A DNA stretch of 38,272 nucleotides. Origin: Pseudomonadales bacterium (GTDB taxonomy: Bacteria; Pseudomonadota; Gammaproteobacteria; Pseudomonadales; UBA7434). The stretch is from contig JABDNS010000116.1 of the NCBI GenBank assembly GCA_013043705.1, positions 1 through 38,272 of the forward strand, read 5' to 3'. This document shows, piece by piece, positions 1 through 31,606 of the stretch (positions are counted from its first letter, which is position 1; each line of letters begins with the position of its first letter). The translations under genes and the position numbers were made by a program. Under the pieces are notes generated by a model. It was not told the origin of the DNA, did not search any database, and saw only the letters and a program-made list of their open reading frames with translations.

Positions 1-741
1 GTGCGCGCGGCACTGGAGCAGAGCGGTTTTGAAAATAGCCAGGTCGTCAACTTTGGCTCCGAGAGCGAGGTACTGGTGCGCCTGGGGCAAGCCAATACTG
101 CAGATCTTGGTGACCGTGTACTGGCTACATTGCGCGAGGCCACGCAAGCGAACGTTAACCTTAAGCGCATTGAATATGTTGGGCCGCAGGTCGGCGAGGA
201 GTTGCGCGAACAAGGTGGCCTGGGTTTATTGGTCGCGATTCTGGGTGTCATGCTTTACGTGGCGGTGCAATTCCAGTTCAAGTTCTCGCTCGGCGCCGTG
301 GCAGCTTTGATCCACGATGTGATTTTAACGCTCGGTTTGTTTTCATTGTTGCAGCTCGATTTTGATCTAACCGTGTTGGCCGCGCTGCTGGCAGTTATTG
401 GCTACTCGCTAAACGATACTATCGTAGTGGCAGACCGGATTCGGGAAAATTTCCGCATGTTGCGGCGCGAAGAACCCGAAGCGGTAATCAATCGATCGCT
501 CAATCAAACCCTGGGTCGAACCGTGATGACATCGCTTACCACTTTATTGGTGCTGACCTCGTTGTTTGTTTTTGGTGGCGACATTATTCACGGCTTTGCG
601 ACCGCGCTGATTTTTGGCGTTATTGTCGGCACCTATTCATCTATCTTCGTAGCCTCTGGCATGCTGCTAACATTAAAGGTTACCAAGGAAGACCTGATCG
701 TTCCGGTTCCGGAAAACGCCGATGTCGACTCCATGCCCTAA
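1..741 (+). CDS. secF: SecF, protein translocase subunit (5' end cut by window)
   Basis: This is the C-terminal part of SecF, the inner-membrane partner of SecD that uses the proton gradient to help the Sec translocon move proteins into the periplasm. The 246 visible residues include the conserved IEYVGPQVGEELREQG stretch just before a membrane helix, and GYSLNDTIVVADRIREN, the SecF form of the motif between two helices. About five hydrophobic segments can be seen. SecF is usually 300-320 residues, so about 70 N-terminal residues lie upstream of the window; the GTG at base 1 is only the first visible codon and not a supported start. secD would be expected directly upstream. The next gene, ppnN, follows after 97 bases. 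Confidence 0.95.
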   Translation: MRAALEQSGFENSQVVNFGSESEVLVRLGQANTADLGDRVLATLREATQANVNLKRIEYVGPQVGEELREQGGLGLLVAILGVMLYVAVQFQFKFSLGAVAALIHDVILTLGLFSLLQLDFDLTVLAALLAVIGYSLNDTIVVADRIRENFRMLRREEPEAVINRSLNQTLGRTVMTSLTTLLVLTSLFVFGGDIIHGFATALIFGVIVGTYSSIFVASGMLLTLKVTKEDLIVPVPENADVDSMP

Positions 742-9642: not shown

Positions 9643-10094
9643 TGCACCCTGTCAGGCGCCAGCGTTTAATGATTGTGGTGATGATCGTGGTGGGCGCCAG
9701 CCTGGCGGCCGTATTGATTGGTATGGCTTTAAAGGAAAACCTGAATTTATTTTACGAACCGGTGCGCGTTGCAGCAGGCGAGGCGCCGCTGGGACGAAAG
9801 ATTCGCGTGGGCGGCATGGTGGTAAAAGATAGTGTCGTGCGAGACACTGAAACCTTACAAGTAAGTTTCGTGCTAACCGACTACAGCGCGAATGTGCTGG
9901 TTACCTACCAGGGCATTCTTCCCGACCTGTTTGCCGAAGAGGCTGGTGCAGTGACCACAGGCGTACTCGGTGAGGATGGTGTGTTTCGCGCCGAACAGGT
10001 CCTGGCCAAGCACGACGAAAAATACATGCCGCCCGAAGTTGCCAAAGCGATCGAAGGCAAGCACCCGCCGGATGGTGCGGCCGGGTCTTATTAA
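9642..10094 (+). CDS. ccmE: CcmE, periplasmic haem chaperone
   Basis: CcmE binds haem covalently through a histidine and carries it from CcmC to the CcmF/H ligase. The 150-residue product has an N-terminal membrane anchor (about residues 9-29), an OB-fold domain with RKIRVGGMVVKDSV, and the haem-binding motif LAKHDEKYMPPEV with His124 as the attachment residue and Tyr128 nearby. The start and stop codons overlap both neighbours by one base (TAATG on each side), so translation through ccmD-ccmE-ccmF is coupled. Confidence 0.97.
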   Translation: MHPVRRQRLMIVVMIVVGASLAAVLIGMALKENLNLFYEPVRVAAGEAPLGRKIRVGGMVVKDSVVRDTETLQVSFVLTDYSANVLVTYQGILPDLFAEEAGAVTTGVLGEDGVFRAEQVLAKHDEKYMPPEVAKAIEGKHPPDGAAGSY

Positions 10095-12136
10095 TGGCTA
10101 ATGCGGTAGCAGACGCGGCGCAATATGCGCTTGCGATTCCAGAGCTCGGCCACTTTGCATTGCTTTTATGTTTACCCATTGCAGCGCTGCTCGCGCTGCT
10201 ACCAGCGATTGGCGTGCGGCTGCAGCTAGGGCAGCTGATGGCTAGCGCAAAACAGCTTGCGCTGGGCTTGTGGATTTGCCTGGTGGTGGCGTTTGCCTGT
10301 TTAGCCTACGCTTTCGCGCAAGACGATTTTAGTCTCGCATTGGTTGCCCAGCACTCGAATACCGCCTTGCCTATGCGCTACAAGCTGAGTGCTGTATGGG
10401 GCAACCATGAAGGCTCGTTGCTGCTGTGGGGCTTGATCTTATCTTGCTGGACCTTGGCGGTTGCCTATTCACCGCAGCAGCTGCCGCTGGCAACCCGCGC
10501 GCGCGTGCTGGCGGTGCTCGGCGGCGTGGCGCTGGGCTTCCTGATGTTTATTATTTTCACCTCTAACCCCTTTACCCGCGACTTGTTGGGCCCACCGCTG
10601 GAGGGGCGCGACCTCAACCCGCTACTCCAGGACATCGGCTTAATATTGCATCCGCCAATGCTTTACATTGGCTATGTTGGCTTTGCGGTTGCGTTTGCGT
10701 TCGCGATTGCCGCCTTGCTGGAAGGTCGGCTAGACGCACAGTGGGCGCGCTGGACCCGCCCGTGGACGGCAATAGCGTGGGCGTTCCTCACCGTTGGCAT
10801 CGCGCTGGGTAGTTGGTGGGCCTACTACGAACTCGGTTGGGGCGGCTGGTGGTTCTGGGATCCGGTTGAAAACGCATCGTTGATGCCATGGCTAGCAGGC
10901 ACCGCTTTATTACATTCGCTTATCGCCACCGAGCGCCAGGGTGTGTTTCGCAGTTGGACGGTGCTACTCGCCATTCTTGCTTTTTCACTTAGCTTACTCG
11001 GCACCTTCCTTGTCCGTTCAGGCATCCTGGTATCGGTGCACGCGTTCGCGGCTGACCCGGCGCGCGGTATGTTTATTCTTGCCTTTCTTGGCGTGGTAAC
11101 CGGTGGCTCGCTGCTGCTGTATGCGCTGCGCGCACCGGCACTTTCAAGCCCAAACCGGATTGCTTTTTTGTCGCGGGAAACCTGGCTGTTAATAAACAAC
11201 TGCATCCTTGCGCTGTCGCTTGCGGTGGTGCTGTTGGGCACGTTGTTTCCGCTGTTGATGAATGCATTGCAATTGGGCAGCTACTCGGTGGGGCCGCCGT
11301 ACTTCAACGCCTTGTTTACACCTTTAATGGTGCTGCTGCTGGTTTTTATGGGCATCGCGCCGTGGCTTAATTGGAAGCACAATCGCATTGCACCGATGAT
11401 TCTGCGGCGTTGGTTTATTGTTGCGTTGTGCAGCGCGCTCGTGGGGCTGGCCTGTGCTGGATGGATGAGCGCGCGCTACCAGCAGGCGTTTTCTGTGCCG
11501 GCCGCTATCGGCCTTGCGTTGGCAAGCTGGCTAGCTTTGATGAGCCTGGCCGATCTTGGCCGTCGCCTTGCACGTCGCGGTCACGGCCTGCAGGGCCTAC
11601 GTGAACTTGCACATAATTACTGGGCAATGCTGGTTGCGCATTTGGGTATAGCGGTGTGCGCGGTGGGCATTGTGCTCACCTCCGTTTACAGCCAACAGCA
11701 GGAACTGGCCATGTCGCCCGGACAAATTGCCTCGGTAGCCGGTTATGATTTTCGCCTGCAACAACTGCGCGCAGAGCGCGGGCCGAATTACAGCGCCACG
11801 CTCGGCGACTTCACGATTGCCAGAAACGGCGTATCGCGGCAGCAGCTTACGGCCGAGAAGCGCGTTTATCATGCGGGCAAAAATGTAATGACCGAGGCTG
11901 GTATTGTTGCCGGGCTTTGGCGAGACCTTTACGTGTCGCTGGGTGAGCCGCTTGATGACGATCGCAATCAGCAGCGTTGGGCGGTGCGTATCTATGTAAA
12001 ACCTTTTATTCGCTGGATTTGGCTGGGCGCGTTGATGATGGCTACGGGCGGGTTGATTAGCGCATTCGACAAGCGCGGCAGGACGCGTGGAGTTGTGTCC
12101 GCCACTGACTACGCCGGATCGGGTCAGGCGACGTGA
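10094..12136 (+). CDS. ccmF: CcmF, cytochrome c haem lyase subunit
   Basis: CcmF is the large membrane part of the ligase that joins haem to the CXXCH motif of apocytochrome c. The 680-residue protein (E. coli 647) has many membrane helices. It shows the tryptophan-rich signature WGGWWFWDPVENASLMPWL at about residues 249-267 and histidine-bearing conserved stretches such as VWGNHEGSLLLW and LILHPPMLYIGYVGF. A long periplasmic segment lies near the C-terminus before the last helix. The GTG of ccmG overlaps its stop codon by four bases. Confidence 0.97.
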   Translation: MANAVADAAQYALAIPELGHFALLLCLPIAALLALLPAIGVRLQLGQLMASAKQLALGLWICLVVAFACLAYAFAQDDFSLALVAQHSNTALPMRYKLSAVWGNHEGSLLLWGLILSCWTLAVAYSPQQLPLATRARVLAVLGGVALGFLMFIIFTSNPFTRDLLGPPLEGRDLNPLLQDIGLILHPPMLYIGYVGFAVAFAFAIAALLEGRLDAQWARWTRPWTAIAWAFLTVGIALGSWWAYYELGWGGWWFWDPVENASLMPWLAGTALLHSLIATERQGVFRSWTVLLAILAFSLSLLGTFLVRSGILVSVHAFAADPARGMFILAFLGVVTGGSLLLYALRAPALSSPNRIAFLSRETWLLINNCILALSLAVVLLGTLFPLLMNALQLGSYSVGPPYFNALFTPLMVLLLVFMGIAPWLNWKHNRIAPMILRRWFIVALCSALVGLACAGWMSARYQQAFSVPAAIGLALASWLALMSLADLGRRLARRGHGLQGLRELAHNYWAMLVAHLGIAVCAVGIVLTSVYSQQQELAMSPGQIASVAGYDFRLQQLRAERGPNYSATLGDFTIARNGVSRQQLTAEKRVYHAGKNVMTEAGIVAGLWRDLYVSLGEPLDDDRNQQRWAVRIYVKPFIRWIWLGALMMATGGLISAFDKRGRTRGVVSATDYAGSGQAT

Positions 12137-14411: not shown

Positions 14412-14701
14412 TAAAGGTGCCGGAAGTAGCGTTTTCTGCCGTTGCAACGCTGGGCCAATCTTCAGCGCCCAGCCTGTGGATAAACTGCGGGCAACTTTTG
14501 CATTAATCCACAACCTGTAGCGCAAGAGTGCGCTTATTACCACAATATGTAGTTTTAGCATTGTCATTATTTGCCCATCAGGGCATCATTAGCGCGCGCT
14601 GGAATCAGTCAGAAACTGAGCAAATAAGCCGGTTTCTATCCAGCCAAGCTAGGCCACCAGCGCCAGGCCACTTACGCCAGACCACTGCCGAAACAGAGAC
14701 G
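14412..14701. other. Non-coding stretch between ccmI and smc
   Basis: No supported gene lies here. It holds a seven-base hairpin GCTGGGC / GCCCAGC (14449-14455 and 14467-14473) that could mark the 3' end of the ccm transcript, although no T-run follows. It also holds the DnaA-box-like dyad listed separately, and a small TGCCC-ATCA-GGGCA hairpin near 14572-14585. The smc frame is open upstream to 14528, but that part does not resemble SMC. Confidence 0.6.
14475..14512. promoter_or_regulatory. Inverted pair of DnaA-box-like sequences upstream of smc
   Basis: TGTGGATAA at 14475-14483 is the exact complement of the consensus DnaA box TTATCCACA. TAATCCACA at 14504-14512 has one difference and the opposite orientation. 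The two share the perfect inverted core TGTGGAT / ATCCACA with 24 bases between the cores. They lie about 190-230 bases before the smc start. DnaA binding is inference. Confidence 0.45.
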
Positions 14702-17700
14702 ATGCGCCTAAAAAATATCAAGCTCGCTGGCTTTAAATCATTTGTCGATCCCACCAACGTCCAGTTCAACCGCAATATGGTGGCGGTTGTCGGGCCGAAT
14801 GGTTGCGGTAAATCCAACATTATTGACGCGGTGCGCTGGGTGATGGGCGAATCGTCTGCCAAGAACCTGCGCGGCGAATCCATGGCCGACGTCATCTTCA
14901 ACGGCTCCACCGGGCGCAAGCCAGTGGGCCAGGCGTCTATCGAGTTGGTGTTCGATAACAGCGCCGGCACGTTGCAGGGCGAATACGGCGGCTTCAGCGA
15001 AATTTCTATCAAGCGCAAAGTGGTGCGCGACGGTCAATCGCAGTACTTCCTGAACGGTGCCAAGTGCCGCCGCCGGGATATCACCGACATTTTCCTTGGC
15101 ACAGGGCTTGGCCCGCGCAGTTACGCGATTATCGAACAGGGTATGATTTCCAGGCTGATCGAGTCCAAGCCTGAAGAGCTGCGCGTGTTTATTGAAGAAG
15201 CCGCTGGCATTTCAAAATACAAGGATCGTCGCCGCGAAACGGAAACCAGGATTCGCCACACCCGCGAAAACCTCGAGCGCTTAACCGACTTGCGCGACGA
15301 GTTAGAGCGCCAGCTGCAAAAGCTCAAGCGGCAAGCTTCAGCGGCCGAAAAATATAAAACCTTCAAAGCCGAAGAGCGCGAGCTGCGCGCGCAAACGCTT
15401 AGCCTGCAATGGCAGTCGTTGCGCGACCGCTCAAGCGGCCAGCGCGAGCGCATTTCTACGCTGGAAATTAGTGTTGAGGAATCGGTTGCAGAGCAGCGAG
15501 GCATCGATGCCCGGGTTGAAGCATTGCGTGAAGAGCAGGTTGAAAAAACCGAAGCCTTTAACAAGGTACAGGGCAGCTACTACGGCGTAGGCGCGGAAAT
15601 TGCCAGGCTGGAACAGTCGATTGAACATTGCGAGCAGCGTGCCAAACAGCTGGCCGAAGACATCGCCGAGACCGAACGCAACACCGCTGAAAGCCGGCAG
15701 CACTTGGAAGACGACCGTAAAAAGCTTGCCCAGTGGCGCGAGGAGCTCGAGGTTATCGAGCCCGAACACGAGCAACTTGCGGCTTCGGAATCGAAGTCCA
15801 GCGAAGCGCTCAGTAGCGCCGAACAAAATATGCAGGACTGGCAACAGTGCTGGGACGACTTTAACGAGCGTGCTGCCGAGCCGCAAAAAAATGCCGAAAT
15901 CCAGCGCACTCGCATCGACCAGATAGAGGAGTCGCTGACCGGGCTGGCCAGCCGCATGGAGCGCCTTTCGAATGAGCGCGTTGAGCTCGAATCTGTCGAC
16001 AACGCCGCGGCGTTGTCAGTGCTGGCTGCTACTGTTGCGCAATCCAGTGCGTCAATAGCGAGCAAACAGCAAGCGCTTGAACAAGGTAGCAGTGCTTTGC
16101 GTGAGGCGCGCGAGCAACAACGCCGCTGCGGCGATGAGCTTGACAGTGAACGTGGGCAACTGCAGCAGCTACGCGGTAAATTGGCCTCGCTGGATGCACT
16201 CCAGGAAGCGGCCAGGGAATCCGAGGGCGGCGCCAGGCGCTGGCTTGCACAGAACCATTTAGACAGCGCGCCCAGGCTGTTACAGCAATTGCGTGTCGAT
16301 AGCGGTTGGGAAACGGCTGTTGAGACGGTACTCGGTGCAAGCTTGCAAGCGGTGACGGTCGATTCTATCGACCGGCTCAGCGACAGGCTCGGCTCGCTGG
16401 GTGACGCCAATGTCGACTTTGTCGAAACCGCACAAAACGCCCCGCCGGCTAACAATCCAGCCGTTGGCCTGCCTGCGCTGAGCGAGAAAGTTAGCGGCGC
16501 GGTACCCGCGCAATTGACCAGTATTTTTGTGGCTAGCGATCTGCAGCAAGCGCTGCAAGCCAGGTCGCGATTGGCGGCTGGGGAATCGGTGGTTACGCGC
16601 GAAGGCATTTGGCTTGGCAGTAACTGGTTGCGCGTTTATAAATCCCGCGACGCAGCCAGCGGCGCGCTGGCGCGCGAGCAGGAAATTGCCAGCTTGCGCG
16701 AGCAGGTAGTGGCCGGCGAAGCGCGTATCGAGGCAGCGCAGCAACGCCGCGAGCAGGCCGAGGCCAAAGTTGCTGGTGCGGAGCAGGCCAAAGATCGCCT
16801 GTTGCAGGAAAAGTCACAGCTTGAAGCAGAGCTTGGCCGCGCACGAGCCGAACACAGCGCGCTGCAGTCCACCATTGAGCAGGTAGCAGTGCGGCTTAAG
16901 CGCAGCGCTGAAGAGTTCAGCCTGGCCGAGAGCAACCAACAGCAGCAACGCGCAGCATTGACTAACGCGCGCGAGCAGCTCGATACCGCGATTGAGGCGA
17001 TGCAGCAGGTTGAAGAGCAGCGCGAATCCTTGTTGCTGGAGCGCGACAAAGTACGCGATGCGCTGAGCGTTAGCCGCGAATCTGCGCGCACCGACCGCGA
17101 CGCGCTGCAGGCTGTGGCGGTTCGCGCCGAAGGTTTAAAAGCGCAGGTTGAATCGGTGGCCAGCAGTGTGGCGCGCCTCGACAAGCAGGTAGAGCAGCTC
17201 ACCGCAAGGCAAGCCAGTTTGCGCGAGACACAAAAAGAAAACGATGCGCCGGTGCAAGGTTATCGTGATACTTTGGCCAGCCAGCTACAGGCGCGGATGT
17301 TGGTAGAAACCGAGCTGGCCACCGCGCGCAAAGCGGTTGAGGGCGTCGACCACGCAATGCGCGAGGCCGACCAGCAGCGCCACAAAATTGAAGAGCAGCT
17401 CACGCAAACGCGTAGCCAGCTTGAAAAAGCGCGCATTGAAAGCCAGGAAATGGAAGTGCGCAGCAAAACTATTGTTGAGCAGCTGCAAGAGAGCGGCTTC
17501 GAGCTCGAGCAAGTACTCGCCGCAATGCCGGCGGAAGCAGAACTTTCCAGCTGGCAAGAGCGCTTGGCCGAGGTCGAACAGCGCATTGAAAGGCTTGGCG
17601 CAATTAACCTCGCGGCTATTGAAGAGTTTCAAACAGAGTCCGAGCGCAAGCGACACCTGGACGCACAGAATGACGAGCTTGAAACTGCGCTGGCAACGCT

Positions 17701-18208
17701 GGAAAATGCGATTCACAAGATCGACAAGGAAACGCGTAACCTGTTCAAGGAAACCTTTGATGCGTTGAACGAGAGTGTGGGTAAGCTGTTTCCGAAAGTA
17801 TTCGGTGGTGGTGCGGCCTATCTTGAAATGACGGGCGATGATTTGCTGAGTACCGGAATCACCATCATGGCGCAGCCGCCGGGCAAGAAAAACAGCACCA
17901 TTCACCTGTTGTCGGGCGGAGAGAAGGCACTTACAGCTATTGCGTTGGTGTTTTCAATATTCCAGCTCAACCCTGCGCCGTTCTGTATGCTCGATGAGGT
18001 TGATGCGCCACTGGACGATGCCAACACTGCGCGCTATGCACGATTGATTAACGAAATGTCCGACAAGGTGCAGTTTATTTTTATCACGCACAACAAGATA
18101 ACGATGGAAATGGCCGAACACCTTATGGGTGTAACCATGCACGAACCGGGTGTGTCGCGCCTGGTTAGCGTCGATATCGATGAAGCCGTGGCGCTGGCAA
18201 CGGCCTAA
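14702..18208 (+). CDS. smc: SMC, chromosome condensation ATPase
   Basis: The bacterial condensin core protein that organises and helps separate chromosomes, normally with ScpA and ScpB. The 1168-residue product has the full SMC plan. The N-terminal head has Walker A GPNGCGKSN (residues 31-39). A long Gln/Glu/Arg-rich coiled coil follows, with a hinge at roughly 505-650 around SGWETAVETVLGASLQAV, then a second coiled coil. The C-terminal head has the signature LLSGGEKAL (from 1069) and Walker B FCMLDEVDAPLDDAN. The ATG at 14702 starts MRLKNIKLAGFKSF, the exact family N-terminus. scpA and scpB are not in the window. zipA follows after 32 bases, so smc-zipA-ligA look like one transcript. Confidence 0.98.
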   Translation: MRLKNIKLAGFKSFVDPTNVQFNRNMVAVVGPNGCGKSNIIDAVRWVMGESSAKNLRGESMADVIFNGSTGRKPVGQASIELVFDNSAGTLQGEYGGFSEISIKRKVVRDGQSQYFLNGAKCRRRDITDIFLGTGLGPRSYAIIEQGMISRLIESKPEELRVFIEEAAGISKYKDRRRETETRIRHTRENLERLTDLRDELERQLQKLKRQASAAEKYKTFKAEERELRAQTLSLQWQSLRDRSSGQRERISTLEISVEESVAEQRGIDARVEALREEQVEKTEAFNKVQGSYYGVGAEIARLEQSIEHCEQRAKQLAEDIAETERNTAESRQHLEDDRKKLAQWREELEVIEPEHEQLAASESKSSEALSSAEQNMQDWQQCWDDFNERAAEPQKNAEIQRTRIDQIEESLTGLASRMERLSNERVELESVDNAAALSVLAATVAQSSASIASKQQALEQGSSALREAREQQRRCGDELDSERGQLQQLRGKLASLDALQEAARESEGGARRWLAQNHLDSAPRLLQQLRVDSGWETAVETVLGASLQAVTVDSIDRLSDRLGSLGDANVDFVETAQNAPPANNPAVGLPALSEKVSGAVPAQLTSIFVASDLQQALQARSRLAAGESVVTREGIWLGSNWLRVYKSRDAASGALAREQEIASLREQVVAGEARIEAAQQRREQAEAKVAGAEQAKDRLLQEKSQLEAELGRARAEHSALQSTIEQVAVRLKRSAEEFSLAESNQQQQRAALTNAREQLDTAIEAMQQVEEQRESLLLERDKVRDALSVSRESARTDRDALQAVAVRAEGLKAQVESVASSVARLDKQVEQLTARQASLRETQKENDAPVQGYRDTLASQLQARMLVETELATARKAVEGVDHAMREADQQRHKIEEQLTQTRSQLEKARIESQEMEVRSKTIVEQLQESGFELEQVLAAMPAEAELSSWQERLAEVEQRIERLGAINLAAIEEFQTESERKRHLDAQNDELETALATLENAIHKIDKETRNLFKETFDALNESVGKLFPKVFGGGAAYLEMTGDDLLSTGITIMAQPPGKKNSTIHLLSGGEKALTAIALVFSIFQLNPAPFCMLDEVDAPLDDANTARYARLINEMSDKVQFIFITHNKITMEMAEHLMGVTMHEPGVSRLVSVDIDEAVALATA

Positions 18209-18240
18209 GTACCCCTAGCCGGGATGTTAAGAGAAAGCCT

Positions 18241-21148
<2,908 letters not shown>

Positions 21149-21166: not shown

Positions 21167-21637
21167 TTATTCGGGCAGAGGGATAAAGCTGTCGCCCTGC
21201 TTGATATGTAAAACGCCGTCGAGATAGACCACATTTTCTCGCTGCTCGGGGCTCAGTGCATGAATTCTTGCATGGTCGGCTTCCGACTGTCCGCTATTGG
21301 TATGCGAGTGATGCTGGCTAGTAACCGTTGCAGCTGCGCTGGCCTTGCCCCTGGCACGAACAAACGCATCGTCGTAGCCTTCGCGACGCAGTTCATCGCG
21401 CAACAACTCCGCATCACCACGCTCGTTGAACTGGCCAACTAAAAAGCGCGACAAGCCACCATGGCGATCTATGCTCACCGTTCCAAACTGGCTTAGCGAT
21501 TCCTGCAAGCCAGCAGCTGGCGAGGCGAATGCGCCAATTTGTACGCTGTAGCCAGCGTTTTCCTCGGCAAAGGTATTAGCGTGAACACAAAACACGCAGC
21601 TGCAAAGCAACAAAATTCTGGAGAGCCTGGGTAGCAT
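21167..21637 (-). CDS. Small secreted SPOR-domain protein
   Basis: A 156-residue exported protein. A signal peptide occupies residues 1-24 (ending in ANTFA). A SPOR domain follows directly at about 29-95, with GYSVQIGAFASPAAGLQESL and SRFLVGQFNERGDAELLRDE. SPOR domains bind glycan strands stripped of stem peptides, usually at the septum. The remaining C-terminal tail has a His-rich stretch (SQHHSHTNSG) and ends with VVYLDGVLHIKQGDSFIPL. The ATG at 21637 is preferred over the longer reading from 21721 because it directly precedes the signal peptide and AGGT lies 9 bases upstream. SPOR domains more often sit at the C-terminus. It is convergent with ligA. Confidence 0.85.
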   Translation of the reverse strand: MLPRLSRILLLCSCVFCVHANTFAEENAGYSVQIGAFASPAAGLQESLSQFGTVSIDRHGGLSRFLVGQFNERGDAELLRDELRREGYDDAFVRARGKASAAATVTSQHHSHTNSGQSEADHARIHALSPEQRENVVYLDGVLHIKQGDSFIPLPE

Positions 21638-21777
21638 AGTGATTAACCTCGTAGTCGTTACAACGAAAATCGGACGGGGGCGAGTATAACGCCTTGCGCG
21701 TATTCCGCTCCCGATCGCCATGGGCTTGGTAGTATTTGCACAAATTTCGCATATTGCCTATGCGGACCGCAAAAAAA

Positions 21778-21832: not shown

Positions 21833-23425
21833 TTACTTCGCTGAAACACCAAGCTTTCTGAGCGTTTGGATATTCAGGTACTTGTCGACCGGCAGAGAGT
21901 TAGCGCGCTGGAAAGCGTTAACTGCCTGGATAGTCTGCTTGCCAATGATGCCATCGATAGGGCCTGGATCGTAGCCGGCTTTATCGAGTGCACGTTGAAT
22001 CGAGGTGATTCTGTTGGCAGTCATGTTGGTTTCGCAAAGAATTGAGCGCCACTGCATGTGTCCATCCTTAACCAGCTTCTGTGAAGTCACAGACGTGTAC
22101 TTGGCAGGAATTTCAATGCGCTCTTCGCGAGCCGGCTCAACCATCTGGCGAACTTTAACCGTTTCGTACTTGGCTGGGATCGCAACTTCTTTCACGGAAG
22201 CAGGCTGCTTAACAACCTTACGCGTAACCTTGCTGTACTTGGCAGGTGTTTTCGACAAGCAGATTTGCGAACCAGTGCGAGACTCTTTGGTCATCGTATT
22301 GTCGCGCGTATCGTGCCAAACAAAGCTGGCATCCCGGGCCAATTCCTTGCGCGTTACCGTTTTGTACTGCGCAGGAATATCGATTGAACGCTGTTGAGCA
22401 TCGTTAACCAGTTTGCGAACCTTAACGGTTTCGTACTTGGCAGGAATTTCAACGCGACGGGTAGACGCAGGCGATTTCAAGATGCGCTTGGTAATGGTTT
22501 TGTAAGTCGCGGGGACTTCAACCAGGCACATGATTTCGCCAGTGGCTTCGTCGATACGCTGGATAGGGCCTGTGCCTTTTTTCCAGACCGTATGCGCAGG
22601 TTTGTCGATAACTGTTTCCGACTGGGTTTCAAACGCCGCGGGTACTTCTTCAATTGTGTAAGAAGCTTCAGAAACTAATACGCGCTCTTCGACCCACTCG
22701 TATTTTGCAGGAATGGTTTCAATGCGATTAGAAGCTTCGCTTGCCACTACTTGTTCGCTTACCGTTTTGTATTCAGGTGGCATGTAGTGCTCGTGGAAGC
22801 ACTGGCCAGGCTGGGCGCCGTCTAGGTTAATGCCGGACGCTTGTGCCGCTGCAAGCAGCTTGTCGCTGGCTGGAATGCCGCTGCCGCTGAGAGAAGTTAA
22901 CCATGAAGTTTGCTCAGGGCTAACCAGCACAGTTTCAGTCTCGGTGCCATAAACCGCAGGAACCGGTGTTAGCTGCGTGCTTGGCGGCGAAACCATGACT
23001 TTCTTCTCAACCATTTGGTACTTGGCAGGAATCAGTTTGATTTTTTCGCTACTGTCGTGAACCAAAACCTGGCTGGTTTCGGTTGAGTAAACTGGCTCGA
23101 CCCAAACGCGCGCGTAGCATTCGCCAGGCTGTGCGTTAGGCGGCAGCAGTGGCTCTGCACCACCTGCGCTTGAAGAAGCTGCACTGGCGCTGCTCGCCAG
23201 GCGTGCTTCGCGCTGTGCCAGGTTGCGCTCGCGCGCGTCCAGTTCGTTGGCGCGTGCACGTGCCTGCGCTTCCATTTGTGAGACGCTGGCTGAAGCATCG
23301 CTGCTGGCGCTGTCGATGCTTGCATCGCCGCTGCCGTTACTGGCACAGCCAGTAATTGCCAGTGCCAATACCGAAGCCGATGCGACTTTCAATAATTGGG
23401 CTTGTTTATGAACGCTACGTTTCAT
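21833..23425 (-). CDS. Modular repeat lipoprotein with C-terminal peptidoglycan-binding domain
   Basis: A 530-residue outer-envelope protein of unrecognised family. Signal and lipobox end at Cys27 (ALAITGC). Residues 30-90 are Ser/Ala-rich with a short helical stretch (QARARANELDARERNLAQRE). Residues 103-464 hold twelve copies of a ~23-residue unit whose core is (I/V)PAKYxTV....V, with prolines at 111, 133, 155, 216, 239, 262, 305, 328, 351, 394, 417 and 440. They form four groups of three. Each group starts after a Cys (103, 209, 300, 389) and ends with a Trp 19-20 residues after the third proline (175, 281, 370, 459). A last Cys is at 464. Residues 470-527 are a PG_binding_1-type domain (IQRALDKAGYDPGPIDGIIG). 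AGGGGA six bases before the ATG at 23425 fixes the start. It probably links outer membrane and cell wall; function unknown. Confidence 0.88.
   Translation of the reverse strand: MKRSVHKQAQLLKVASASVLALAITGCASNGSGDASIDSASSDASASVSQMEAQARARANELDARERNLAQREARLASSASAASSSAGGAEPLLPPNAQPGECYARVWVEPVYSTETSQVLVHDSSEKIKLIPAKYQMVEKKVMVSPPSTQLTPVPAVYGTETETVLVSPEQTSWLTSLSGSGIPASDKLLAAAQASGINLDGAQPGQCFHEHYMPPEYKTVSEQVVASEASNRIETIPAKYEWVEERVLVSEASYTIEEVPAAFETQSETVIDKPAHTVWKKGTGPIQRIDEATGEIMCLVEVPATYKTITKRILKSPASTRRVEIPAKYETVKVRKLVNDAQQRSIDIPAQYKTVTRKELARDASFVWHDTRDNTMTKESRTGSQICLSKTPAKYSKVTRKVVKQPASVKEVAIPAKYETVKVRQMVEPAREERIEIPAKYTSVTSQKLVKDGHMQWRSILCETNMTANRITSIQRALDKAGYDPGPIDGIIGKQTIQAVNAFQRANSLPVDKYLNIQTLRKLGVSAK
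22034..23119 (-). repeat. Protein-coding repeat region: four modules of three 23-residue units
   Basis: This codes for residues 103-464 of the lipoprotein. Modules 2, 3 and 4 start 89 residues apart (prolines 216, 305, 394). Module 1 has a longer linker (61 instead of 43 residues after its third unit). The DNA shows the same element many times, for example GTACTTGGCAGGAAT near 22096, 22433 and 23019, but the copies have diverged enough that the repeat looks old rather than freshly amplified. Confidence 0.85.
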
Positions 23426-24162: not shown

Positions 24163-24774
24163 CTAATCCTGGCTGTCTTCGCTTAGTTGACGCTTTGCGC
24201 GCTGTGCCTCAGCCTGTACTTGCATAATGTGCTTTGCAATGATTTGTGACTCAGCTTCCGGCAGCGCATGGAAGGAAGCCGAAATATGATAACCGCCGTC
24301 TATTGCCCTGCTTGAAGCCACCACCTTGATGTAGGCGGCAAAGCCGATCAGTGCGCGGTGGAACCAGATTTTGATTGCATAGTAGCCATCGCGGCTCAGC
24401 TCTGCATCGTGGGTAAAGCCAATGCCGCCCTCGCTCAAATCTATCGACTGCAGCTTTTGATCTTCGCCCAGCGTGGCCTCCGCGACCGCGCTGCCAATGG
24501 CTTCAATTTTTTTGTTCATTGCACCCAGGTAAGCCGCCAGTTCGCTATTTTGCTCAGCGATTGCGCGCATTAGCCCGTGGTGATCACCCTCAATGGCCTG
24601 CAGTTCGCGCACAAGTTTGAAAGGAGCTGACGGGCTGAAAAAATCGTCGGCGGGGCTCTTTTCTGCGGCGTCTACCTCAATTGGCGAGACTTCCAAAATA
24701 GCGGTGTCGTCGATGCGAAACCGCTGGCGGCGATCTGCCACGTCGCTATGGACCGAATCATTAGAAGCGTTCAT
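24163..24774 (-). CDS. PilZ-family protein with widely split ligand motifs
   Basis: A 203-residue cytoplasmic protein. It has both c-di-GMP-binding PilZ motifs: RxxxR at Arg16-Arg20 (DRRQRFRID) and DxSxxG at Asp112-Gly117 (IDLSEGGIGF), followed by the PilZ beta-barrel pattern YYAIKIWFHRALIGFAAYIK and GGYHISASFHAL. In most PilZ domains these motifs are some 20-35 residues apart; here about 90 residues lie between, mostly a predicted long helix (LVRELQAIEGDHHGLMRAIA and following). A long helix inside a PilZ protein recalls the tetrameric PilZ group of Xanthomonas, but this is not tested. GGGGG before the ATG at 24774 supports the start. It diverges from lolC. Confidence 0.85.
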   Translation of the reverse strand: MNASNDSVHSDVADRRQRFRIDDTAILEVSPIEVDAAEKSPADDFFSPSAPFKLVRELQAIEGDHHGLMRAIAEQNSELAAYLGAMNKKIEAIGSAVAEATLGEDQKLQSIDLSEGGIGFTHDAELSRDGYYAIKIWFHRALIGFAAYIKVVASSRAIDGGYHISASFHALPEAESQIIAKHIMQVQAEAQRAKRQLSEDSQD

Positions 24775-24927
24775 GTTTCCCCCGGATGCCCCGCGCACTG
24801 GCGACAGGCGCGTGTACTCCGATTGAGTTTAGTATACTTGCGGCTACTTTCTTGTCGGCTTTAGCGCTGTGCGACTCGCGCGGGGCTGCTGTATCGGTGA
24901 ATTAATAACCTCCGGATCCTGCCAGCC

Positions 24928-29047: not shown

Positions 29048-31606
29048 ATGGCATGGAAGCTATCTTTTTGTGCGGGAGTTGGCAGTTTATTGCTGTTGCC
29101 CGCACTATTTGCCGCTAACACACTGGCCGCCATTGGCGTGGTTTCTGTTCTGCTTTACCTGTGGGCGTTCAGCCGTTCGCGCCGCTGGCCTTACAAAGCT
29201 TTGTTACTGTGTGCTTGCTTCGCTTTAGGCAGTGCCTACGCGCAGTGGCAGGCGCAGTTGCAACTCGAGCGGCGGCTGCCGGAAACACTAGACGGTTTCG
29301 AATATGTGATCGAGGGACGCGTACACGGAATTGTGGCGCGCAGCGAAGGCCAGCAGTTCGGCGCGCTGCGCCGTAAACAGCAGTTCGATTTTCATTTGCA
29401 TGCGCTGCGCTTGCTGAATCAAGCGGCGGGCTCAACGGCGGCTAGCAACGCGCCATCCAACGTGGTCGGCCTGAAGCGGCTGCGCTTGAGCTATTACGGT
29501 GTGCAGCGCTTCGAGAGTGGCCAGCAGTGGCGCATGGTAGTGCGCTTGCGCAGCCCCAGGGGTTGGGTAAACCCTGGTGGTTTTGACCTGGCCAAGCATG
29601 CGCTGGGCAGGCGCATTCACGCTTACGGTTACGTCCGCGAAAGTCATCCGGTGCTGCAGCTAGCCCCAGCCGATTCGATGTCGCTGCGGCTTGCGCGCCA
29701 TCGTGTACTCCAACCTTTGATAGCTTCGCTGCAATACGGGCCAATCCTGAATGCTTTGCTGTTGGGCGATAAATCTGCACTGAGCGATGCGCAGCGCACA
29801 CTTTTTATTGAAACCGGCACTGCACACCTGATGGCTATTTCCGGTTTGCATATCGCCACCGCTGCTACTGCGGGTGCGCTGCTCGCGAAGTCTTTGTTGT
29901 GGATGCTTCCGCGGCTGTTGCTTTTTGTGTCGGTGCCCACGGCTGTCGCTAGTGGCGCCGTACCGGCTGCAGTTTTCTATGCCGCACTATCGGGTTTTGC
30001 AATCTCTACGCAAAGAGCACTGGTGATGCTGCTATGCGCTGCGGCAGCGATGCTGCTGCACAGGCGCAGTTCGCCGTGGAGCGTACTTTGTACTGCTGCA
30101 ACCGGCTTATTGTTATTCGACCCGCTGGCGCTACTTGGCGGCGGCTTTTGGCTTTCTTTTTTTGCGGTTGCGGTGTTACTGCTTGCGGCCCACGGCGCTA
30201 ATAATCGGCCGATTACAGTGCAGAAAAAGCCGGTTTTTTTAACCTGGATAAAACTATTGTTCAGCGCGCAGTGCGCACTTTTGTTTGGCATGCCGTTGAT
30301 ACAGCTTGCGTTAGGGCTGCCACTGGCAATGGTTGCGCCACTGGCTAATTTACTGGCCGTGCCGATCGTCAGCTTTTGGGTCATCCCGGCCGGGCTTGCA
30401 GGTTTGCTGGCATCGTACCTGCACAACGGCATGGCGAGTGCACTGCTAGCGCTTGCCGATAAGGGCCTGTTGCTGGTGATGCACTGCTTGGCGTACTTGC
30501 AACAAACGCCACTTGCCAATTGGCGTATTGAAGGCGAGTTGGCGGGCGTTAGCATGCTGGTGGCTATGCTTGCGGCCGTTGTTTTGCTTGCTTGCAGAAA
30601 GGGGCCACTGGTGCCGCTTGCAGCGTTGCTTTGGATGGTTTTGTTTGCAATGCCGCTACTAAACTTACGCGGCGGCGGCCAATTAGCGCGTGGCGATATC
30701 TCGCTTTGGCAATTTGATGTGGGGCAGGGCACCGCGGTGCTGGTGCAGACTGCGCAGGGCAATTGGCTGTTCGATACCGGAGGCACATTTGGATTTGGCC
30801 GGGACGCCGGCAGTAGCACGCTTGTGCCCGCGCTGCGGCATATGGGTATTGCGGCGTTGGACGCTGTGATTCTCAGTCACGCCGACTCGGATCACACTGG
30901 CGGCGCTGAGTCACTCGGCAGCGCAATTGACGTAGGCCAGTGGTATACCGGTGGCAGTGCGGTTAGGGTTTTGCCCGCGGGCGTGCATGCAAAACCCTGT
31001 AAAGAGGGCGTTGCGTGGCGCCGGGATGGCGTAGCGTTTTATTTTCTTAATAACGGCGCGGGCGGGCAAAGCGAAAATAACGCATCCTGTGTGCTGATGA
31101 TACGTTCGATGTCACCGCCAGTGGCAAGTAGCCTGGATGCGACGAACGCGGCCCGGTTGCATAGGTCCGCAGGCAGCGTTTTGCTCACCGGCGATATCGA
31201 ATTGGACAGCGAAGTTGATTTGTTGCCGCTCGGCCGACGGGCGCTGGCAGCGACGGTATTGATGGCACCTCATCACGGCAGCAAGACCTCATCAACCGCG
31301 TCATTCCTTGATGTGGTTAAGCCTGGTGTCGCGTTGTTCTCCAACGGTTATCGCAACCGCTATGCGCATCCGCATGCGGCGGTGCTCGCGCGCTATCGCG
31401 CACGCGACATCCAAATCCTGCGTAGTGATTACCATGGCGCCATTCGCCTGGATTTTAAGGCCGGGCGCTGGCGTGCGCCGCACTGCGCCCGGCCTGCCAG
31501 GCGACATTTTTGGGTTTACCGGCAGCGGCCAATACGATGTGGTTGCCAGTTGTCCAAATTCCCGCCGTCCGGCTGCAATCCGCAGGCAGATGGCGGGGGT
31601 TTGTAA
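29048..31606 (+). CDS. comEC: ComEC/Rec2, DNA uptake channel
   Basis: ComEC takes single-stranded DNA across the inner membrane during natural transformation. The 852-residue protein has all three parts: an N-terminal DUF4131/OB-like region after two helices, the central Competence domain (from about residue 220, with ALLLGDKSALSDAQRTLFIE and GTAHLMAISGLHIA), and a C-terminal metallo-beta-lactamase domain with DVGQGTAVLV, the metal-binding HADSDH at residues 611-616, and LMAPHHGSKTSS. The last ~35 residues are basic and Cys-containing without family similarity. All key residues are present, so it looks functional. Whether the cell is competent depends on genes outside the window. Confidence 0.96.
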   Translation: MAWKLSFCAGVGSLLLLPALFAANTLAAIGVVSVLLYLWAFSRSRRWPYKALLLCACFALGSAYAQWQAQLQLERRLPETLDGFEYVIEGRVHGIVARSEGQQFGALRRKQQFDFHLHALRLLNQAAGSTAASNAPSNVVGLKRLRLSYYGVQRFESGQQWRMVVRLRSPRGWVNPGGFDLAKHALGRRIHAYGYVRESHPVLQLAPADSMSLRLARHRVLQPLIASLQYGPILNALLLGDKSALSDAQRTLFIETGTAHLMAISGLHIATAATAGALLAKSLLWMLPRLLLFVSVPTAVASGAVPAAVFYAALSGFAISTQRALVMLLCAAAAMLLHRRSSPWSVLCTAATGLLLFDPLALLGGGFWLSFFAVAVLLLAAHGANNRPITVQKKPVFLTWIKLLFSAQCALLFGMPLIQLALGLPLAMVAPLANLLAVPIVSFWVIPAGLAGLLASYLHNGMASALLALADKGLLLVMHCLAYLQQTPLANWRIEGELAGVSMLVAMLAAVVLLACRKGPLVPLAALLWMVLFAMPLLNLRGGGQLARGDISLWQFDVGQGTAVLVQTAQGNWLFDTGGTFGFGRDAGSSTLVPALRHMGIAALDAVILSHADSDHTGGAESLGSAIDVGQWYTGGSAVRVLPAGVHAKPCKEGVAWRRDGVAFYFLNNGAGGQSENNASCVLMIRSMSPPVASSLDATNAARLHRSAGSVLLTGDIELDSEVDLLPLGRRALAATVLMAPHHGSKTSSTASFLDVVKPGVALFSNGYRNRYAHPHAAVLARYRARDIQILRSDYHGAIRLDFKAGRWRAPHCARPARRHFWVYRQRPIRCGCQLSKFPPSGCNPQADGGGL

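Follow-up and report, generated by a model that had tools for sequence, protein, structure and literature searches.

Among bacterial envelope lipoproteins, Pal, Lpp and LpoA/LpoB combine a lipid anchor with a contact to the peptidoglycan. The same combination is found in the protein described here, but with different domains: it carries a PG_binding_1 domain and no OmpA-type domain, and its proposed repeat hairpin has no counterpart in Pal, Lpp or LpoA/LpoB. The OmpA-like profile PF00691 is absent from the protein up to an E value of 1, which places it outside the Pal/OmpA family, and the Ala_zip_lipo profile reaches 10.5 bits against a cut-off of 43, short of membership in the Lpp/alanine-zipper lipoprotein family.

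With respect to beta architecture, the lipoprotein OspA of Borrelia has a polar, solvent-exposed and coreless single-layer beta-sheet with hairpin units of about 23 residues, and the G5-E repeats of SasG/Aap form long thin wall-anchored beta rods of tandem repeats, each folding in sequence order. We found no sequence relation to OspA when a profile of the repeat domain was compared with PDB sequences. Unlike the repeats of SasG/Aap, a repeat in the first arm of our protein would need a partner in the second. The stems of pore-forming toxins (lysenin, aerolysin, epsilon toxin and LukGH) are likewise long two-stranded antiparallel hairpins and are the best Foldseek and VIA matches of our structure model, with matched model ranges that are symmetric about its tip. 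However, each of these stems is a lone hairpin that is stable within a ring and a membrane, whereas the family described here is built of 23-residue repeats with arms of 95 to about 280 residues each, does not show the membrane-type alternating hydrophobic face and has no sequence relation to the toxins.

Our analysis concerns one lipoprotein gene in a 38,272-nucleotide stretch of DNA from a Pseudomonadales bacterium (the window). We conclude that its repeat region is very probably one giant two-stranded antiparallel beta-hairpin, a protein shape that is not yet listed in family and structure libraries.

Layout and regularity of the lipoprotein

The gene is preceded by a Shine-Dalgarno-like AGGGGA at 23437-23432 (minus strand), while promoter and terminator scans at the gene stayed at chance level. 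The domains and repeat modules of its 530-residue product are listed in Table 1.

Table 1. Features of the lipoprotein gene, with positions in the window
Feature	Positions	Strand	Basis
Whole gene, 530 aa (ATG at 23425, stop at 21833)	21833..23425	-	ORF and translation
Signal peptide with lipobox ITGC, Cys27 predicted lipidated, +2 Ala	23345..23425	-	Sequence
Long helix, residues 41-80	23186..23305	-	AlphaFold2 helix, mid-helix pLDDT about 90
Arm A module A1, C103-W175, 3 units	22901..23119	-	Spacing 72 in 27/27 long relatives; coevolution with B2
Arm A linker 176-208, 33 aa, short helix 188-196, faces arm B linker	22802..22900	-	
Arm A module A2, C209-W281, 3 units	22583..22801	-	Spacing 72 in 27/27; coevolution with B1
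Hairpin tip W281-V302, WKKGTGPIQRIDEATGEIMCLV, contains Cys300	22520..22585	-	Invariant alignment columns; symmetry center of coevolution band
Arm B module B1, C300-W370, 3 units	22316..22528	-	Spacing 70 in 27/27 long relatives
Arm B linker 371-388, 18 aa	22262..22315	-	
Arm B module B2, C389-W459, 3 units	22049..22261	-	Spacing 70 in 26/27 long relatives
Hairpin base WRSILCETN with Cys464, across hairpin from Cys103	22025..22051	-	Invariance; coevolution register
PG_binding_1 domain, residues 471-525	21851..22015	-	Pfam PF01471

Of 27 long relatives, 26 retain the lipobox cysteine (LALAITGC27A), and the predicted lipid anchor of the original prediction is thereby supported at the level of sequence motifs. 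An alanine at +2 fits outer-membrane sorting under the E. coli rule, and the protein is best explained as a predicted outer-membrane lipoprotein. The helix that follows has a heptad pattern (V48-A55-L62-L69-L76) and is probably a coiled coil; the length of this N-terminal helix region varies freely among relatives. At the other end, the expected peptidoglycan-binding domain was recovered as a match to PF01471 (E = 3.3e-15, 56.5 bits versus a cut-off of 23), and this part of the model aligns with a SltB3 domain (VIA-align, Z = 8.4, rmsd 2.0, 64 residues). The protein ends in Lys as Lpp does (GVSAK; codon 21836-21838, minus strand), and relatives end in SPR, SAR and others. Since the C-terminal residue is not conserved, attachment to the peptidoglycan through it is unlikely.

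The original prediction had described four groups of three repeat units, twelve in all, and we find the same arrangement and gene coordinates, with unit prolines at 111, 133, 156, 216/217, 239, 262, 305, 328, 351, 394, 417 and 440. The module cysteines (103, 209, 300 and 389) and tryptophans (175, 281, 370 and 459) are also where it had placed them, each Trp lying 19 residues past the last unit proline. A fifth cysteine of the repeat region, C464, follows the last Trp and had been missed; W459, R460 and C464 are invariant in the alignment of the family. The 89-residue period holds for modules 2 to 4 (W281-W370-W459) and differs from the first to the second module (W175-W281, 106 residues). Self-identity of the sequence peaks at lag 89 (25%) and lag 23 (21%), compared with a maximum over all lags of 15.6% in 1,000 shuffles.

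Relatives come in a long form, with four Cys-Trp modules of spacings 72, 72, 70 and 70, and a short form, with two modules of spacings 95 and 93. In both, the Cys-Trp spacing equals 23n+3 in the first half and 23n+1 in the second, practically free of indels (27 long and 28 short sequences). The spacings of the 27 long relatives show no indels apart from one 2-residue exception, which indicates that the regularity is conserved and not due to chance.

The original prediction had not recognized the repeat family, and the profile searches of Pfam, NCBIfam and PDB sequences agree. No Pfam or NCBIfam profile exceeded its cut-off over the repeat region of the window protein and eight diverse relatives, and a profile of 29 repeat domains found none among PDB chain sequences up to an E value of 1. 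Six 7-mers of the unit sequence did not occur in any of 5.39 million open-access papers, among which we also found nothing relevant on long beta-hairpin repeat proteins, and a Foldseek comparison of the model with viral models gave no meaningful match.

Probable pairing of the two arms

Coevolution was computed on 58 gap-free short two-arm domains of 220 residues (about 37 effective sequences), and the strongest covarying pairs (among them 63-160, 64-155, 44-181, 33-189, 21-202, 51-169, 94-127, 76-144 and 86-137) lie on one antidiagonal. The band with i+j from 218 to 226 holds 20 of the top 50 pairs, where 2.1 are expected, and the antidiagonals at i+j 219-223 score 4.9 to 7.0 against a background with a standard deviation of 1.05 and a maximum of 2.1. 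When arms were re-paired at random, the score fell to -3.7 +/- 0.4, compared with 6.2 observed. The non-alphaproteobacterial half of the set alone scores 7.2 at i+j 222; the alphaproteobacterial subset alone is weak, with its best sum at 220 (score 3.1). Charge covariance is strongly negative at i+j 221-223 only, reaching -6.9 standard deviations at 222, which is the signal that cross-strand salt bridges give. In the window protein, arm A carries a net charge of -11 and arm B of +16.

The long form (36 sequences, linkers cut out) agrees approximately with the predicted registers: A2-B1 has its best sum at 304, exactly as predicted, and A1-B2 at 300 against a predicted 302, which itself scores 2.7. 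The long-form coevolution is weaker than that of the short form, and one off-register score (A2-B2 at 358) is comparable. Local hairpin pairs are almost signal-free in the short family, with a mean Z of 0.03-0.11 versus 0.71 for cross-arm pairs. This differs from the OspA sheet, a meander in which neighboring strands pair, and a beta-meander within one arm was rejected on these grounds.

In line with this register, the outer ladder would be formed by A1 (103-175) with B2 (389-459) and the inner ladder by A2 (209-281) with B1 (300-370), so that each arm residue would face a fixed partner in the other arm. Arm A, with six units, would run outward from the base and turn at the tip, and the six units of arm B would return. 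The 33- and 18-residue linkers sit opposite one another, as a hairpin would require.

Furthermore, the two arms have equal unit numbers across the family, with three exceptions. A unit-chain parser run on 194 loci (150 proteins) gave directly equal halves in 122 of 150 proteins (67 with 4|4 units, 41 with 3+3|3+3, eight with 3|3, four with 2|2 and two with 6|6), and the remaining parsed relatives were mostly truncated, frameshifted or equal after inspection. Hand counts of rhizobial proteins add 11|11 (L217, L221), 9|9 (L223, L227, L228), 7|7 (L218, L231) and 6|6 (L212), and three mini forms (L106, L107, L110) have one unit on either side of an NG or DG turn (1|1). An 880-residue protein of Neomegalonema perideroedes (L138) has 12|12, although two insertions split arm B as 2+6+4. 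Equal-arm relatives thus have 1, 2, 3, 4, 6, 7, 9, 11 or 12 units per arm. Unequal arms occur in three rhizobial proteins, with 10|6 (L101/L195), 12|9 (L220) and 9|11 (L229), whose runs of near-identical units suggest recent expansion or loss. At every size the arm type is constant, with Cys 7 (arm A) or 5 (arm B) residues before the first unit proline. Because the arms are distinct in type (23n+3 versus 23n+1), length changed in both together, and copying one arm onto the other does not explain their equality, each arm keeping its own type at every size.

AlphaFold2 models, computed with alignments of 55 sequences for the window protein and 33 for the 4|4 short relative L034, support the beta-strand units of the original prediction, with 7- and 12-residue strands alternating and Pro-Ala between them (window protein, pLDDT about 80, pTM 0.38; L034, pLDDT 87, pTM 0.34). 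The strands of the L034 model are mirrored about i+j = 222 (for example 6-12/210-216, 15-26/196-207 and 29-35/187-193). Arm pairing in the model was read off its secondary structure and structural matches: short contiguous toxin hairpins map by VIA-align onto model ranges such as 29..192, 31..192 and 52..171 and thus span mirror ranges of both arms, which suggests that the arms are paired in the model itself. These are local hairpin matches only, the best (lysenin pore) having a VIA Z of 2.8 with an rmsd of 9.2 over 74 residues. The Pro-Ala kinks of both arms face each other, two facing kinks per 23-residue period, so ladders of 12 and 7 residues alternate. The low pTM values mean that the overall shape is not fixed; together with the high pLDDT they would fit a long bendable rod, which is no proof of one.

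These results bear on several other ways of folding the repeats. The original prediction had viewed the modules as small domains pinned by Cys or Trp, and four independent domains of about 89 residues in a row, forming a spacer from the lipid anchor to the peptidoglycan, would accommodate the exact module spacing, the Cys and Trp at the module borders and the position of anchor and peptidoglycan domain at opposite ends of the sequence. Yet coevolution ties module 1 to 4 and module 2 to 3, local pairs carry almost no signal, and there are relatives with a single uninterrupted arm of 4, 6 or 12 units, so that coevolution, equal arms and structure models together contradict such domains, which we regard as highly improbable. 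The 89-residue period does have structural meaning as three 23-residue units plus a linker, but not as a separate domain. By bending at the Pro-Ala kinks, the paired ribbon could also become a compact double-stranded coil, i.e., a two-arm beta-solenoid, as the two facing kinks per period and the 23-residue period itself, which is typical of beta-helix coils, might suggest. In the short family, however, the parallel diagonal at an offset of 23 scores only 2.0 versus 7.0 for the cross-arm band, no other diagonal is prominent and other antidiagonals are at background, and hairpin stems, not beta-helices, make up the best structural matches; such a coil seems improbable. Arm A might instead find its arm B in a second chain, or hairpins might lie side by side as a sheet, tube or fiber. 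Coevolution is blind to the difference between intra- and interchain contacts, the N-terminal helix resembles a coiled-coil oligomerizer, two-stranded ribbons have open edges and the best PDB matches are stems formed only in rings. Against this, the two units of the 1|1 forms flank a classical NG, DG or TG turn, as an intramolecular hairpin predicts, and regular prolines and charged residues disfavor side-by-side beta growth, a principle of negative design. Pairing between chains or side-by-side assembly is unlikely in our view, and the intramolecular hairpin is the reading we follow below.

Tip, base and a possible mast in the envelope

The most conserved stretch of the protein, residues 281-302, carries WKKGxGPIQ(K/R)IDEATGEIMC, and of the 24 columns that are invariant in the alignment (A5), 13 fall in this region. 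On the best reading, this conserved segment between modules is the free far tip of the hairpin. The base is probably closed by Cys103 at its start and Cys464 at its end through a putative disulfide. With five cysteines in the repeat region, two disulfides would be possible and the tip Cys300 would be left free, which fits two relatives (L090 and L092) that keep both base cysteines while the tip Cys is absent. In one rhizobial subgroup, on the other hand, the tip Cys is retained, the end Cys is missing and there is an additional Cys close to the start.

Antiparallel pairing of the arms brings the lipid anchor (via the coiled-coil helix) and the peptidoglycan domain together at the base. The original prediction of a spacer with anchor and peptidoglycan domain at opposite ends is thus not supported, as both termini then lie at the base of the hairpin and the repeat does not separate them. 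The protein could act as a peptidoglycan-clamped mast, from whose base the hairpin would project, offering its invariant tip to a putative partner, with a tip-to-base distance that depends on how many units there are. We consider this envelope-anchored mast, with the hairpin showing its conserved tip to a partner, the best explanation of the whole and moderately probable; the tip-presenting function taken by itself is put forward tentatively. LpoA/LpoB, outer-membrane lipoproteins that reach inner-membrane partners through the sacculus (PMC8824477), may serve as a working analogy for the mast, not as homologs.

Straight-rod lengths were estimated by us at 0.33 nm per residue and are upper bounds: about 31 nm for 4 units per arm, 48 nm for 6 and 92 nm for 12. 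The distance between inner and outer membranes of E. coli is 30-32 nm (PMC8824477), which the 6- and 12-unit lengths exceed, so an upright rod cannot be the whole story: either kinks shorten the rod or long forms lie along the sacculus, and an in-plane tether or a side-by-side assembly is possible. These lengths also bear on a passive tether between outer membrane and peptidoglycan of the Pal/Lpp type, in which anchor, coiled coil and peptidoglycan domain would do the work and the hairpin would be a flat strut along the sacculus with no specific partner. Such a tether is suggested by the meeting of anchor and peptidoglycan domain at the base and by the very long forms (L138, 12 units per arm), which do not fit upright into a periplasm of about 30 nm. 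Nevertheless, conservation is highest at the tip, a feature not required of a strut, and the hairpin is retained in some relatives that lack the anchor or both anchor and peptidoglycan domain, so we deem a purely passive role fairly unlikely, and the mast with a presented tip is retained as our working explanation.

Repeat proteins usually pack each unit on the next. The family may represent a new repeat-protein architecture, an intramolecular giant hairpin in which mirror repeats are paired and the arms gain or lose units together, along with a peptidoglycan-anchored mast of adjustable length in several phyla that would offer a conserved tip to a partner; we advance this combination with some reserve. 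The pairing of units across the two arms, with arms kept equal at 1 to 12 units, would provide a clean natural test of paired-repeat evolution, and for protein design it offers an unusually long polar beta-hairpin from a simple 23-residue code. If the mast is real, about one in seven of the sampled gammaproteobacterial genomes would encode a rod that is anchored to the wall, tunable in length and conserved at its tip. The determinant of the distance between inner membrane and peptidoglycan has been called unknown (PMC5771553), and a natural series of mast lengths could be a tool for that question.

Distribution of relatives and genomic neighborhood

Relatives are encoded at 74 loci in reference genomes. 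A whole-genome search of gammaproteobacteria recovered them in 38 of 274 genomes, and they are patchy within the window's own genus (2/12). Elsewhere they were found in 9 of the 289 genomes from G127's class (same phylum as the window), 38 of 249 genomes of the order of G293 (called rhizobial), 3 of 150 in the phylum of a Gemmatimonadales MAG and 2 of 148 in the phylum of a Desulfuromonadales MAG. The labels "rhizobial" and "Rhodobacterales" for relatives were inferred from their sequences. In alphaproteobacterial forms the lipobox is often missing, and some rhizobial forms also lack the peptidoglycan domain. Seven probably rhizobial proteins (L217, L221, L223, L227, L229, L220 and L101) have Arg-rich, near-identical units, up to 12 per arm, with no lipobox or peptidoglycan domain seen.

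Several relatives show further peculiarities. Two full-length short-form paralogs lie in tandem (L128 and L129), and two 6|6 proteins (L186 and L192) have an extra Cys-containing N-terminal stretch of more than 100 residues as well as a YCDC motif in arm B. L138 has a strongly acidic arm A (-31) and a basic arm B (+26), the latter with two copies of an insert of about 60 residues (VVVDVNGNVIPGAVGVSPEGFALAADGQVFRD).

A conserved operon was rejected, as neighboring genes are not common to different clades, and so was a phage or plasmid origin, with no phage match and one weak plasmid match. The gene for the large mechanosensitive channel, mscL (Pfam MscL), directly follows downstream, on the same strand, in the related loci L034, L036 and L042 and lies nearby in L038 and L040, a neighborhood confined to two lineages. 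In the window, a SPOR-domain protein is encoded 112 bases downstream on the same strand (21167-21721, minus) and was not seen beside the gene in relatives, and a PilZ-like protein at 24163-24798 (minus) scores 18.5 bits, below the Pfam cut-off of 22.5. The genes smc, zipA and ligA follow one another at 14528-21148 (plus), with ccmF at 10094-12136 and a ComEC-type competence protein at 29048-31606.
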